Positions 7,874-35,969 of a DNA stretch of 54,977 bases are shown here, in pieces. The stretch spans positions 13,078 through 68,054 of the forward strand of contig JAPYUK010000008.1 in NCBI GenBank assembly GCA_029936155.1. The letters are read 5' to 3'. Under the pieces are notes generated by a model that worked only from the letters and a program-made list of their open reading frames with translations, did not search any database and was not told where the DNA came from. A program made the position numbers and the translations under genes. Source of the DNA: Dehalococcoidia bacterium. GTDB lineage: Bacteria > Chloroflexota > Dehalococcoidia > Lucifugimonadales > Lucifugimonadaceae. Numbering within the stretch: the first letter of the stretch is position 1; every line of letters starts with the position of its first letter.

Positions 7874-7930
7874 CGATTGCAACATCCAGTTGTGCTACAA
7901 GGCTGGCGCTACCGGGAAGGAGGGCAACTA

Positions 7931-8278
7931 GTGTCTACTGAATTGAAGTTTTACTGTTGGTCACGTTGAAGTACGTGCCAGAAGGCCCGTCGGGCTCTCA
8001 ACGATTCAGAAACTGGTTACGAATTTAAAGATTTCTTCGAGGAAGAGCTATCTGTCGACGAGATAACAGCCCTGAGTAAATTGACGTCTATCGACGAGAT
8101 GTTCGCGTGGCGCAGCCCAAGCTCCAAGCCGTACCGAGACCTCAGAGGCAAGGCAACAGATGATGAACTGATCGCTCTGATGGCGAAGGAACCTCGACTC
8201 ATCCGGCGCCCGATTCTCACCGACGGTTCGCGGATTGTTTTCGGGTTCAAGCAGGGTGCGTACGACGAGCTTATCTAG
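7931..8278 (+). CDS. ArsC/Spx-like thioredoxin-fold protein, probable selenoprotein (Sec at codon 13)
   Basis: Read through one in-frame TGA, this is a full-length 115-aa ArsC/Spx family protein. The N-terminus runs FYCWSR-TGA-STCQKARRAL, where relatives have a redox-active cysteine followed by STC (CxxC). The C-terminal half has the family signature LIRRPILTDG and then VFGFKQGAY. TGA at 7967-7969 replaces exactly the catalytic cysteine, and no other stop occurs until TAG at 8276. Start is GTG 7931 with a strong Shine-Dalgarno (AAGGAGGG, 7916-7923). A stem-loop follows the TGA at bacterial SECIS distance. A thiol/selenol reductase is likely; arsenate specificity cannot be claimed. A nonsense mutation or sequencing error (TGC to TGA) is the alternative. 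Conventional annotation would start at ATG 8099 or drop the gene. No selA, selB, selC or selD is visible in this window. Confidence 0.8.
7967..7999 (+). promoter_or_regulatory. UGA selenocysteine codon and candidate bacterial SECIS stem-loop
   Basis: After TGA 7967-7969, GGCCC (7984-7988) pairs with GGGCT (7992-7996), including one G-U pair, closing a GTC loop at 7989-7991. The helix extends past one mismatch by two more pairs (7981-7982 with 7998-7999). The loop G and U are the 20th and 21st bases after TGA. From memory this matches the loop position in E. coli fdhF and the general bacterial rule of a G early in the apical loop 16-37 nt from UGA. A folding calculation was not possible. Confidence 0.6.
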
Positions 8279-8426: not shown

Positions 8427-8621
8427 ATGCTGTTCCTGAAATCATGCCCTCGATGCACCGGCGACATTAATGCCGATAGCGACACGCACGGCACTTTTTT
8501 GAAGTGCCTTCAATGCGGGTTTCCGAAGGATATATCGCCAGAAATGGCGGCCATATTATTTAGGCAGACGACCGCCACCCCGGGTTCGCCGGCGGTACAA
8601 CCTGGTACCCGTGCCGCTTAA
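8427..8621 (+). CDS. Small zinc-ribbon protein (64 aa)
   Basis: A short protein starting at ATG 8427 behind AGGAGAG (8411-8417). Two CxxC knuckles (SCPRCTGD and KCLQCGF) about 18 residues apart form a classic zinc ribbon in the first half; the C-terminal half is Ala/Pro/Thr-rich and looks disordered. Such proteins often bind nucleic acid or act as accessory factors, but no function can be assigned. The frame extends upstream to 8235 into the selenoprotein gene; that extension is rejected because of the well-placed Shine-Dalgarno. Confidence 0.7.
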   Translation: MLFLKSCPRCTGDINADSDTHGTFLKCLQCGFPKDISPEMAAILFRQTTATPGSPAVQPGTRAA

Positions 8622-16149: not shown

Positions 16150-16410
16150 ATCGAAACAGCTTCGACGAGAAGTAGTACCGAGATTGCAAAGGTCCGAGAG
16201 ATTCGGTGGTTGGTGTGAACCGGAACCCATGCACTCGTGAAGTCGTCTCTGAGCTGGCAAACTGGAAGTCCTCATTTACCACGGATTATTAGGTACGCCC
16301 GGTGGCACCGTTAAAGCTAATCGAGTGGTTCGCAGCAGGCTCCGTAAGTTGCGAGCAATGAAGGTGGTACCGCGGTTAACCCGTCCTTTGATGAAGCCGT
16401 TTTTGCTTTT
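16150..16410 (+). promoter_or_regulatory. T-box leader (valine) upstream of valS
   Basis: An untranslated leader of ~340 nt precedes valS. It holds the T-box consensus AAGGTGGTACCGCGG at 16361-16375, whose TGGT bulge would pair with an uncharged ACCA tRNA end. AAGG then pairs with CCTT around GGTTAACC. Upstream is a stem I with an AGAGATTCGGTGGTTGGTG-like segment, and GAAGTCGTCTCTGAG, where GTC (16242-16244) is a fitting valine specifier codon. T-runs at 16400-16410 follow. The expected effect is valS expression when charged tRNA-Val is low. The boundary at the 5' side is approximate. Confidence 0.85.
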
Positions 16411-16505
16411 AATTTGGGTGGGTATTTTTGTGCCTAGAAATTGGCACAGTGGAATCGTGTTATCAATGTACTAGCGGCCGTGAATGGCCGAATAGGAACG
16501 AAGAA

Positions 16506-19157
16506 TTGAAGTCGATAGAGTTTAGCGACCTACCAAAACGCTTTGATGTGAACGAACGAGAGTTGCACTGGCGCGATCGTTGGAACGAACTTGGCGTCGC
16601 CAACCGTGACCCGAATGCACCGCGTGAAAACTCGTTCGTTATCGACTCGCCGCCGCCGACCGTCAGCGGATCACTTCATATCGGTCACATCTTCTCGTAC
16701 ACGCATCAGGATCTGCTCGCTCGCTACAAGCGAATGACCGGATGGAACGTGGCCTACCCGATGGGCTGGGACGACAATGGTCTGCCAACCGAGCGTCGCG
16801 TTCAGAATTACTTCTTCGTTCGTGCCGAACGCAACGTGACCTACATCGAGAATCTTGATGTTGAAGCAAAGCGTGCAGAGCTGGGTCTCAAAAAGAACCA
16901 GGAACTCGTGATCAACCGTGAAAACTTTATTGAGCTTTGCCGAGTTATCACCGAGATGGACGAGATTGTCTTCAAAGACATGTTCAACCGGATGGGCTAC
17001 TCGATCGACTGGAGTGATGAATACACCACAATCGACGCCAAAAGCCGCCGCATCGCGCAGCGCAGTTTTCTGGATCTCCACGAGAAGGGACACGTATACC
17101 AACTTGAGTCGCCGACCATGTGGGATGTCGATTTCCAGACAGCCGTCGCCCAGGCTGAAGTTGAAGACCGTGAGAAAGGTGGCGCGTATCACGATATCGA
17201 GTTCGGAGTATTCGAGGAAGAGGCCCCGGTCAAGAGCTTTGTGATCTCGACTACTCGCCCCGAATTGCTGGCTGCTTGTGTGGGCATCACGGCCCATCCC
17301 GACGACGAACGATTCAAAGGGTTGTTCGGTAAACACGCCGTAACACCGGGTTTCTTCGCCAAAGTTCCCATTTTCCCGAGCTCCGAGGCCGATCCTGAAA
17401 AAGGGACGGGGATATTAATGGTGTGTACGTTCGGTGATCAGACCGACGTTGCTTGGTGGCATGAGCAGGGACTTGAACTGCGACAGATCCTAGGTCGCAA
17501 CGGCCGAATTCTCGACCACAAGTTTGGCGAAGACGGCTGGGAGAGCCAGAACCCTGAAAAAGCGAACGAGAACTATCAAGAGATGGTCGGAAAGCGAATT
17601 CCATCTGCCAAGTCGATCATGGTCGACTTGATGCGGGATCCCGAGAACTCTGCCACTGGTAACGGTGCGCCACTGCAGGATGAGCCGAAGCAAATTCAGC
17701 ACCCTGTTCGCTATTTCGAAAAAGGCGACAATCCGCTCGAATATCTGACTACGCGCCAGTGGTTCGTGAAGTTGCTCGACAAGACCGACCAGATGATTGA
17801 CATGGGTCGTAAGATCGATTGGCACCCCGACTTCATGCGTAAGCGGTTCGAGAACTGGACCGAAAACCTGAACGTCGACTGGTGTATTTCTCGCCAACGC
17901 TACTTTGGCGTGCCGATTCCAGTGTGGTATCCGCTCGATGAGCAGCTTGAGCCGCAGTACGATCAGGCCATCATTGCGACCGCCGACATGCTGCCCGTCG
18001 ACCCTGAGTCGACCGCGGCTCCCGGCTACAGCGAGCATCAGCGTGGAGTTGCAGGCGGATTTTCCGGGGAACCCGATATTTTCGACACGTGGTTCACTTC
18101 GTCGCTCAGCCCGCAAACGGTCGCCCGGTGGGGTGATGACGACGATCAGATGGACACGCTGTTCCCGATGGATGTGCGGCCGCAGGGTCACGACATTATT
18201 CGAACGTGGGCGTTCTACACGATCGCCAAGTCGATGCTGCACCATGAAACGGTGCCGTGGCGCAACATCAACCTATCGGGTTGGGTTCTCGATCCCGATC
18301 GGAAAAAAATGTCGAAGTCGAAAGGCAACGTGGTCACGCCGGTTGATACTCTCGACAGATTCGGAGCAGATGCCGTTCGCTACTGGTCGGCCTCGTTCAA
18401 GTTGGGCAGCGATGCCGCCCACGATGAGGCAATTTTCAAGATCGGTGGCAAGTTGGTCACCAAGCTTTACAACGCCGGTAAATTCGTACTCGCCCAGACG
18501 GCGGAAGACGGTCCTATTACGAACGAACTCGACCTAGCGTTTGTGGCCGAGCTCAAGGAAGTCGTCAGAATCGCCACTGAGTCGTTCGAGAAATTCGAGT
18601 ACTCCGTAGCGCTACAGGAGACCGAAAAATTCTTCTGGGGAGCATTTGCCGACAACTACATCGAACTGCTCAAAAGGCGTTCCCGCTCAGAAGACGACCC
18701 TGAGGGCAGGGCATCGGCTGTGGCGACATTGCGACTTGGCCTGAACGTCGTGTTGCGGTTGTTCGCTCCGATCGTTCCGACCATTGCCGATGAAGTGTGG
18801 AGTTGGGTGTTCGCCGAGGAGACGGGTGAGCCGTCGGTTCACAAGGCAGCTTGGCCAACGGTCGCCGAGCTCGATGCGATTCCTTCACCGGAAATTGCTG
18901 GCTCGTTCTCGGCTGCTTGTGACGCTATCTCAGCGATTCGAAAGGCAAAGAGCGAGAGCGGCGTGAGTTTGAATCGCGAGCTGCTGAGTCTGGTGCTTGA
19001 GGCCGACGATGAAGGTGAATCTGGTCTTCGACTGGTATTGGACGATGTCGCAGCCGCCGGTGGGGCTGAAGCGATCAGCTTCGTTTCTGGTACACCGTCG
19101 GGCGACTGGCGCTACAAAGCCCAGATCGAACCCGCTGAGGCACCGGAAAAAAAATAG
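16506..19157 (+). CDS. valS: Valyl-tRNA synthetase
   Basis: Class I aminoacyl-tRNA synthetase charging tRNA-Val and editing threonine. From TTG 16506 it is 883 aa. HIGH box: SGSLHIGHIFSYTHQD near residue 60; KMSKS box: KKMSKSKGN near residue 605. The segment GWDDNGLPTERRVQNYF is typical of the ValS group without the C-terminal coiled coil; the protein indeed ends shortly after the anticodon-binding domain. The start was chosen because AGGA (16494-16497) precedes it and because the sequence then begins SIEFSDLPKRFDVNE as expected. The open frame upstream to 16428 lies in the leader. Regulated by the T-box leader. Confidence 0.95.
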   Translation: MKSIEFSDLPKRFDVNERELHWRDRWNELGVANRDPNAPRENSFVIDSPPPTVSGSLHIGHIFSYTHQDLLARYKRMTGWNVAYPMGWDDNGLPTERRVQNYFFVRAERNVTYIENLDVEAKRAELGLKKNQELVINRENFIELCRVITEMDEIVFKDMFNRMGYSIDWSDEYTTIDAKSRRIAQRSFLDLHEKGHVYQLESPTMWDVDFQTAVAQAEVEDREKGGAYHDIEFGVFEEEAPVKSFVISTTRPELLAACVGITAHPDDERFKGLFGKHAVTPGFFAKVPIFPSSEADPEKGTGILMVCTFGDQTDVAWWHEQGLELRQILGRNGRILDHKFGEDGWESQNPEKANENYQEMVGKRIPSAKSIMVDLMRDPENSATGNGAPLQDEPKQIQHPVRYFEKGDNPLEYLTTRQWFVKLLDKTDQMIDMGRKIDWHPDFMRKRFENWTENLNVDWCISRQRYFGVPIPVWYPLDEQLEPQYDQAIIATADMLPVDPESTAAPGYSEHQRGVAGGFSGEPDIFDTWFTSSLSPQTVARWGDDDDQMDTLFPMDVRPQGHDIIRTWAFYTIAKSMLHHETVPWRNINLSGWVLDPDRKKMSKSKGNVVTPVDTLDRFGADAVRYWSASFKLGSDAAHDEAIFKIGGKLVTKLYNAGKFVLAQTAEDGPITNELDLAFVAELKEVVRIATESFEKFEYSVALQETEKFFWGAFADNYIELLKRRSRSEDDPEGRASAVATLRLGLNVVLRLFAPIVPTIADEVWSWVFAEETGEPSVHKAAWPTVAELDAIPSPEIAGSFSAACDAISAIRKAKSESGVSLNRELLSLVLEADDEGESGLRLVLDDVAAAGGAEAISFVSGTPSGDWRYKAQIEPAEAPEKK

Positions 19158-35611: not shown

Positions 35612-35810
35612 AGTGAGCGGCGGCGTCCTGTACTGCGCTAGTCAAGTCCAAACCGGATTCCCGATCCAGATACGGCGCATTCTAGCTGTGTCACGGGGAA
35701 GCCGCAATGACTAGTGACGAAGCAATATTTAGGATCATTTGACATGTAAGTCTGTGGTTGTAAAACTAAAGCGCAGACGAATTATTTCGTCAGCGTGTTG
35801 GAAATACAGC

Positions 35811-35905
35811 ACACGGGGAGCTCGGGATAGCCGGGCTGAGAGGGCAGACACAATCATTCTGCCAACCCTTGAACCTGATCTGGGTAATGCCAGCGTAGGA
35901 AATCG
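35811..35905 (+). promoter_or_regulatory. TPP riboswitch (THI element)
   Basis: The conserved core is present: ACGGGGAGC, then GGGCTGAGAGG, then CCCTTGAACCTGATCTGGGT followed by AATGCCAGCGTAGGAA. These are the helix-junction and pyrophosphate/thiamine pocket sequences of the THI element. It precedes an ABC transporter gene set by ~65 nt. High thiamine diphosphate should lower expression of the transporter. The remaining part of the 35612-35969 gap has no other clear feature. Confidence 0.93.
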
Positions 35906-35969
35906 GCCCGAGTGCCACATCCAAGCGTGAATACCCAGATGAATAGAACTCTGGGAATACGCAGGAACG

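Follow-up and report, generated by a model that had tools for sequence, protein, structure and literature searches.

An ArsC/Spx-family protein of SAR202 Chloroflexota with a probable selenocysteine in its U-x-x-C motif

Background

ArsC-type selenoproteins with selenocysteine (Sec, U) as the first residue of a U-x-x-C motif are already known. According to the accessible part of PMC2398784, the GOS survey of 2008 lists a selenoprotein family named 'Arsenate reductase 2', which is assigned to cd03032, has a UxxC motif and comprises 42 Sec sequences. The family NF041106 (ArsC_rel_Se_1) likewise contains ArsC-like proteins with Sec as the first residue of U-x-x-C, as the consulted sections of PMC13188914 describe. 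In the accessible parts of the respective papers, ArsC-like selenoproteins are also listed in PMC1794560 and an ArsC-like UxxC family in PMC9312934 and PMC13188914. Two further relatives, which have a catalytic Cys instead of Sec, are the Spx protein of Bacillus subtilis (1z3e) and the glutaredoxin-linked arsenate reductase ArsC (TIGR00014; PDB 1i9d and kin). For Spx, the available sections of PMC2801614 report that mutation of G52 disables the protein and that K62 is required for activation.

The literature on selenium in Chloroflexi and their neighbors deals with other proteins. The consulted parts of PMC5736913 and PMC4959059 describe Sec-containing formate dehydrogenases in Chloroflexi, glycine reductase is the subject of PMC9751293 from the Dehalococcoidia/selenoprotein literature (accessible part), and selA and selB were reported in the consulted part of PMC5649159 for sponge-symbiont bins of various phyla. 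The terms ArsC and Chloroflexi are absent from PMC12013277, PMC5029168 and PMC9402790, and the main text of PMC10444878, a paper on the cultivation of SAR202, contains no word beginning with 'selen'. In the open-licence literature, we found no paper that pairs SAR202 with selenoproteins or Lucifugimonas with selenium, and in the part of it that was examined there was no report on the presence of the gene described here across SAR202.

Here, we analyzed a stretch of 54,977 nucleotides (the window) from the genome of a SAR202 Chloroflexota whose genus includes Candidatus Lucifugimonas marina (Chloroflexota, Dehalococcoidia, SAR202 cluster); the latter carries the gene as well. A preliminary description had pointed to a probable selenoprotein gene in this window and had stated that ArsC-like Sec proteins were reported in marine metagenomes, which agrees with the 'Arsenate reductase 2' entry in the accessible part of PMC2398784.

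Results

The translation bore out the preliminary description of a full-length frame of 115 codons with a single TGA (Table 1). Twelve residues are followed by the TGA, by S-T-C, by 99 more residues and by the terminal TAG. The TGA occupies the position of the first Cys in a CxxC-type motif, giving U-x-x-C, and the Shine-Dalgarno sequence noted ahead of the GTG start was rated good. A mechanical scan of the window for frames with an in-frame TGA returned four, of which only this gene was convincing by eye. Standard annotation would probably truncate, break or miss it.

Table 1 Features of the gene, with positions counted from the first nucleotide of the window
Feature	Position	Strand	Basis
Probable ArsC/Spx-family selenoprotein gene, 115 codons and TAG stop	7931..8278	+	Translation; PF03960; relatives
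Shine-Dalgarno sequence AAGGAGGG, 6 nt 5' of the GTG start	7917..7924	+	Sequence
Codon 13 (TGA), proposed to encode selenocysteine in place of the catalytic Cys	7967..7969	+	TGA/Cys interchange in relatives
TGC for Cys16, the proposed resolving Cys of U-x-x-C	7976..7978	+	Position +3 from TGA: Cys in 70/72, Ser in 2/72 TGA relatives (best 80 of 103 stretches)
Core hairpin of the proposed SECIS element; its G-U-C loop (7989-7991) follows the UGA by 19 nt	7981..7999	+	Fold, covariation, published SECIS model
Invariant Ser62-Pro63	8114..8119	+	63-row alignment A2
Invariant Arg93-Pro94, aligned with R-P of Spx	8207..8212	+	63-row alignment A2; alignment with Spx

With the TGA read as a residue, the protein belongs to the ArsC family of Pfam (PF03960; 56.4 bits, cut-off 24), and it is the only match to this family in its whole genome (G000). 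It stays under the cut-off of all eight NCBIfam families listed: it reaches 72.6 bits with TIGR01617, the Spx/MgsR regulators (cut-off 75.05), 29.7 bits with NF041106 (cut-off 85) and 29.0 bits with TIGR00014 (cut-off 106.05). All 63 members of alignment A2 match TIGR01617 with E-values of up to 0.001.

In a search of 60 genomes, which includes the own genome and overlaps with the named-genome set below, 43 have a match to the gene. As counted from the listing, there is one in-frame TGA inside the match in 41 of these 43; as for the other two, G028 has TGC and the match in G003 begins past the active site. Reading the active-site codon at 29 loci from this search gave TGA in 28, always at the same codon, and TGC in one. 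Scanning named genomes yielded 103 stretches that encode a relative, and the best 80 of them were kept. Codon 13 is readable in 79 of these best 80 of 103 (L108 is cut off) and is TGA in 72 and TGC or TGT in seven. All 72 TGA frames are otherwise open and of full length, including the one on the closed chromosome of Candidatus Lucifugimonas marina (L094, CP046147). When 393 genomes across the class were searched, 82 had a match; by our own count, 62 of these are near full length, 55 with an in-frame TGA, among them L196 with an additional TAG, and seven without, and the rest are weak or partial. Six of the seven without TGA were read and all have Cys; the seventh is G089. The preliminary description had expected a Cys at codon 13 of homologs, which is indeed what the relatives without TGA have there, and conservation of the TGA, which was found in close as well as in distant relatives. 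Its argument that a random loss would rarely hit this very codon is strengthened by the single TGA in 41 of 43 genomes with a match and by the identical position in 28 of 28 TGA loci read.

Among the TGA relatives from the best 80 of 103, TGA is also the terminal stop in 27 of 72. The codon therefore keeps its stop meaning, and it is the context that decides. Y8 and other residues 5' of the TGA are kept among the relatives in the alignment. In one relative (L196:1501-1821, genome G419), a TAG lies three codons 5' of the Sec TGA, at a codon for Trp in most others; this may be a pseudogene, an error or another recoding.

The machinery for Sec insertion was searched in the own genome (2.07 Mb, 84 contigs, 89.3% complete). 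It encodes SelB (cut-off 242.25; the genome search gave 322.1 bits, the protein of 627 amino acids 339.5 bits) and SelA (509.2 bits, cut-off 267.9). With the tRNA-Sec of a relative as query, the last 28 nucleotides of a tRNA-Sec gene were detected where contig C46 ends (76,860-76,887 of 76,887; 96% identity). Since, in addition, the DNA beyond this fragment resembles the DNA beyond the tRNA-Sec gene in L072 (73% over 906 columns), selC is cut by the contig end. A further tRNA-Sec match on contig C81 (52.3 bits, above the Rfam gathering score) was discarded, as ARAGORN reads it as tRNA-Ser(GCT). SelD was not found in this 89%-complete assembly: the two matches, at 92.9 and 74.3 bits, are under the cut-off of 125 and by eye resemble other AIR-synthase-type proteins. 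Of the four genes named for a search in the preliminary description, selA and selB are thus present, selC is represented by its 3' 28 nucleotides, and selD was not recovered.

Within the 60 genomes, SelB is above its cut-off in 53 and SelD in 51. Gene and SelB occur together in 43 genomes, SelB without the gene in ten, neither in seven and the gene without SelB in none (Fisher p = 5e-5, uncorrected for relatedness). One of the seven genomes lacking a SelB match (G056) has strong matches to tRNA-Sec and SelD, so that a gap in the assembly may explain why SelB is missing. All ten tRNA-Sec loci of relatives checked with ARAGORN have the anticodon TCA; an eleventh source, L048, is the contig with selB and carries no tRNA. 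Among the matches listed, the SelD of each relative has an in-frame TGA of its own (also L199-L210), and it is probably a selenoprotein itself.

Directly 3' of the UGA, we found a hairpin that occurs in two registers. In the genus of the window, nucleotides 18-22 pair with 26-30 and 15-16 with 32-33 (UGA = 1-3), and the loop, mostly G-U-C, comes 19 nt after the UGA. Outside the genus, most lineages pair nucleotides 19-26 with 30-37 and have a loop that is often G-U-N or G-G-N and lies 22-23 nt after the UGA; in L114 the loop is at 19. The hairpin of the window's genus is about 4 nt closer to the UGA than that of most other lineages (L089-L168, nucleotides 15-37 after the UGA), and in L118 hairpins are possible in either register. 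RNAalifold gave no single joint structure over all lineages, because the hairpin sits in two registers, and the registers were analyzed apart. In the 19 sequences of the genus, 99.2% of the cells are paired and two pairs change on both sides, with few columns that vary; the covariation is modest, its score being reached by 15 of 500 shuffles and the counts of pairs and types by 93 of 500. The 54 sequences from outside the genus (53 distinct) have 90.8% of their cells paired, compared to at most 68.4% in slid controls, and contain 50 double-change cells versus 15.5 +/- 2.8 in shuffles, none of 500 being as high. All these shuffles ignore relatedness, and hence their frequencies are not probabilities.

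The published model of the bacterial SECIS element, as given in the consulted sections of PMC13188914, asks for a loop of 3-9 nt with G in its first two positions, a stem of 4-16 bp, a spacing of 16-37 nt and a minimum free energy of -7.5 or below. If flanking pairs are allowed, 60 of 73 TGA genes (the 72 from the best 80 of 103 and the window gene) conform to it, and in the other 13 a correctly shaped hairpin has an energy of -4.1 to -7.2, short of the limit. A hairpin of this shape at -4 or below is present in none of the seven Cys genes; at least one of them (L123) folds stably, but its loop lies outside the published model. The hairpin of the window agrees with the model at -9.4 kcal/mol when distant flanking pairs are included, whereas the 19-nt core reaches -7.2 with the limit at -7.5. 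The window core is equaled in folding by 16 of 200 of its dinucleotide shuffles, and the 60-nt fold around the UGA has a z of only -0.84.

A stricter local test, with 40 synonymous-codon shuffles per gene and a threshold of -7.5 kcal/mol, was passed by 47 of the 73 TGA genes; among the synonymous shuffles 7.3% passed, and of 876 sites elsewhere in these genes 2.2%. In 55 of the 73 genes the native sequence outdoes at least 95% of its 40 shuffles, and for the window gene two of 40 do as well as the native sequence. Over the first ten codons after the UGA, conserved residues within the genus show a codon identity of 0.74, versus 0.40 at 50 other positions (p = 1.8e-4). An Rfam scan of the window at gathering level returned no RNA family at the hairpin site. 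The same database reports a T-box leader (16153-16391, forward strand, 122.3 bits), followed by a large frame (16428-19157) that by eye resembles an aminoacyl-tRNA synthetase, and a TPP riboswitch (35804-35919, forward strand, 58.3 bits).

The neighbors of the gene in the window encode a mandelate-racemase-like enzyme, LytB/IspH, an MFS transporter, a 64-aa frame, an enoyl-CoA hydratase, PRPP synthetase and SecA. LytB, PRPP synthetase, the MFS transporter and SecA are found again at 36 to 41 of 80 loci, the window included (best 80 of 103). Near relatives keep the gene together with IspH, MFS, PRPP synthetase and SecA, and in others it has frames alongside that by eye are MutS- and MutL-like. 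The neighborhood tells little about function, as it varies between relatives and names no substrate. The 64-aa frame just downstream (8427-8621, forward strand) has CPRC and CLQCG motifs and no Pfam match, and similar frames follow the gene in seven of 79 other loci (best 80 of 103).

In a tree of 80 proteins (midpoint root, few columns), the window protein falls within a set of 19 rows from genomes of its genus (support 100/98). The seven Cys forms make up one side of a single branch (support 99/99) inside the 44-row half that also holds the window. One branch has 12 rows from Syntrophaceae and other records titled Deltaproteobacteria. The Cys-form genome G028 retains SelB, a tRNA-Sec with anticodon TCA (L066) and a SelD with one TGA. 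A contig titled Alphaproteobacteria (L104) bears the SAR202 gene with its neighbors in nearly identical form and is probably mis-binned.

An AlphaFold2 model, in which codon 13 was entered as Cys, has a mean pLDDT of 93.2. Its top Foldseek match is Spx bound to the alpha-CTD (1z3e; TM 0.90, 27% identity); ArsC-related proteins and ArsC follow at lower ranks. Spx also comes first in a sequence-profile search of solved structures (1.4e-23). The conserved domain cd03032 is presumably the Spx-like subgroup.

Discussion

The window gene adds a member to the known UxxC selenoproteins of the ArsC type. It probably belongs to the same subfamily as the GOS 'Arsenate reductase 2' sequences or to a very close one, to judge by their descriptions: both are marine, of the ArsC family and of the U-x-x-C type. 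The accessible part of PMC2398784 names no host lineage for that family and has no occurrence of Chloroflexi. NF041106 shares the ArsC-like character and the position of Sec, but the score of the window protein is under its cut-off. With Spx, the protein has the fold and the C-x-x-C position in common, as well as the equivalents of R60 and R92; it differs in having Sec for Cys and in lacking equivalents of G52 and K62. Glutaredoxin-linked ArsC also has the same fold and catalytic-Cys position, but the window protein differs by its low TIGR00014 score, its U-x-x-C pair and the absence of an arsenic gene among its seven neighbors.

That the gene encodes a selenoprotein, as the preliminary description supposed, is almost certain in the light of the conserved TGA, the covarying hairpin, selA and selB and the 3' end of tRNA-Sec. 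The full reading, to which we assign a probability of roughly 0.9, is that of an ArsC/Spx-family selenoprotein with a thioredoxin-like fold and SECIS-directed Sec, most likely a selenol-thiol oxidoreductase. The computation shows the frame, the exchange of TGA and Cys at the active site, the covarying hairpin, SelA and SelB and the fold; we infer the insertion of Sec itself, the chemistry and the substrate in the following scheme. The UGA would be read as selenocysteine, with the downstream hairpin recruiting SelB together with Sec-tRNA-Sec, the charged tRNA being supplied by SelA and SelD. Sec13 and Cys16 would form the redox pair: Sec13 may attack the oxidized substrate, Cys16 may resolve the intermediate by way of a selenenylsulfide, after which thioredoxin or a low-molecular-weight thiol could reset the pair.

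Readings without Sec fare badly. A nonsense mutation or a sequencing error in a dying or mis-assembled gene might be suspected in a draft assembly of 84 contigs, yet 72 of the 79 named relatives with a readable codon (best 80 of 103) share the TGA at this position, their frames, that on the closed chromosome included, are otherwise open, and the synonymous sites 3' of the TGA are unusually conserved. Such conservation already refutes this reading, and its probability is next to nil. It is also very improbable, if not quite to the same degree, that the TGA is read as Trp or Cys through a changed code or a suppressor, or that it is a true stop after which only a downstream piece of 59-65 residues is made. 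Nothing positive speaks for this beyond a downstream TTG or ATG where a short piece could start. Against this reading stands the use of TGA as terminator in the relatives, which means that it still stops translation, and the fact that the replacing residue is Cys in the seven other relatives; SelA, SelB, the tRNA-Sec with anticodon TCA (relatives) and the hairpin are all Sec-specific. The segment 5' of the TGA, with Y8 and other residues, is conserved, which speaks against it as well.

A further question concerns function. Given a selenoprotein, a selenol-thiol oxidoreductase is probable, a redox-sensing regulator somewhat unlikely and any other role improbable. An oxidoreductase fits since Sec and Cys are placed in a thioredoxin-like fold with invariant S-P and R-P. 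To our knowledge, nearly all known selenoproteins are redox enzymes, which speaks against the alternative of an Spx-type transcription regulator that binds RNA polymerase and uses U-x-x-C as a switch without being an enzyme. It is the likeness to Spx that gives this alternative its weight: Spx is nearest both by profile and by fold, C10-x-x-C13 of Spx aligns with U13-x-x-C16, and R60 and R92 align with R61 and R93. However, of the residues for RNA polymerase contact or activation (G52, R60, K62), R60 alone has an aligned counterpart, as G52 is lost in a gap of two residues and the position of K62 is taken by an invariant Pro, and the TIGR01617 score is under the cut-off. Taken together, we consider the regulator unlikely. 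In view of the likeness to Spx and a neighborhood that is not informative, the role as a selenol-thiol oxidoreductase is put forward only as more probable than that of an Spx-like regulator. Still less likely is the specific variant that the only ArsC-family protein of this SAR202 genome is a Sec-Cys oxidant sensor that reprograms RNA polymerase. If there were such a Sec-based Spx-type regulator, selenium supply would tune stress transcription.

Conclusions

The selenol-thiol oxidoreductase proposed here adds a widespread gene of SAR202, an abundant and barely cultured ocean lineage, to the catalog of selenium-dependent proteins. The clade of Cys forms without a model-conforming SECIS element and the shifted hairpin together provide a clean case of how SECIS elements can be lost and displaced inside a coding sequence. 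Since a cultured strain of the same genus carries the gene, both the insertion of Sec and the function of the protein are directly testable.
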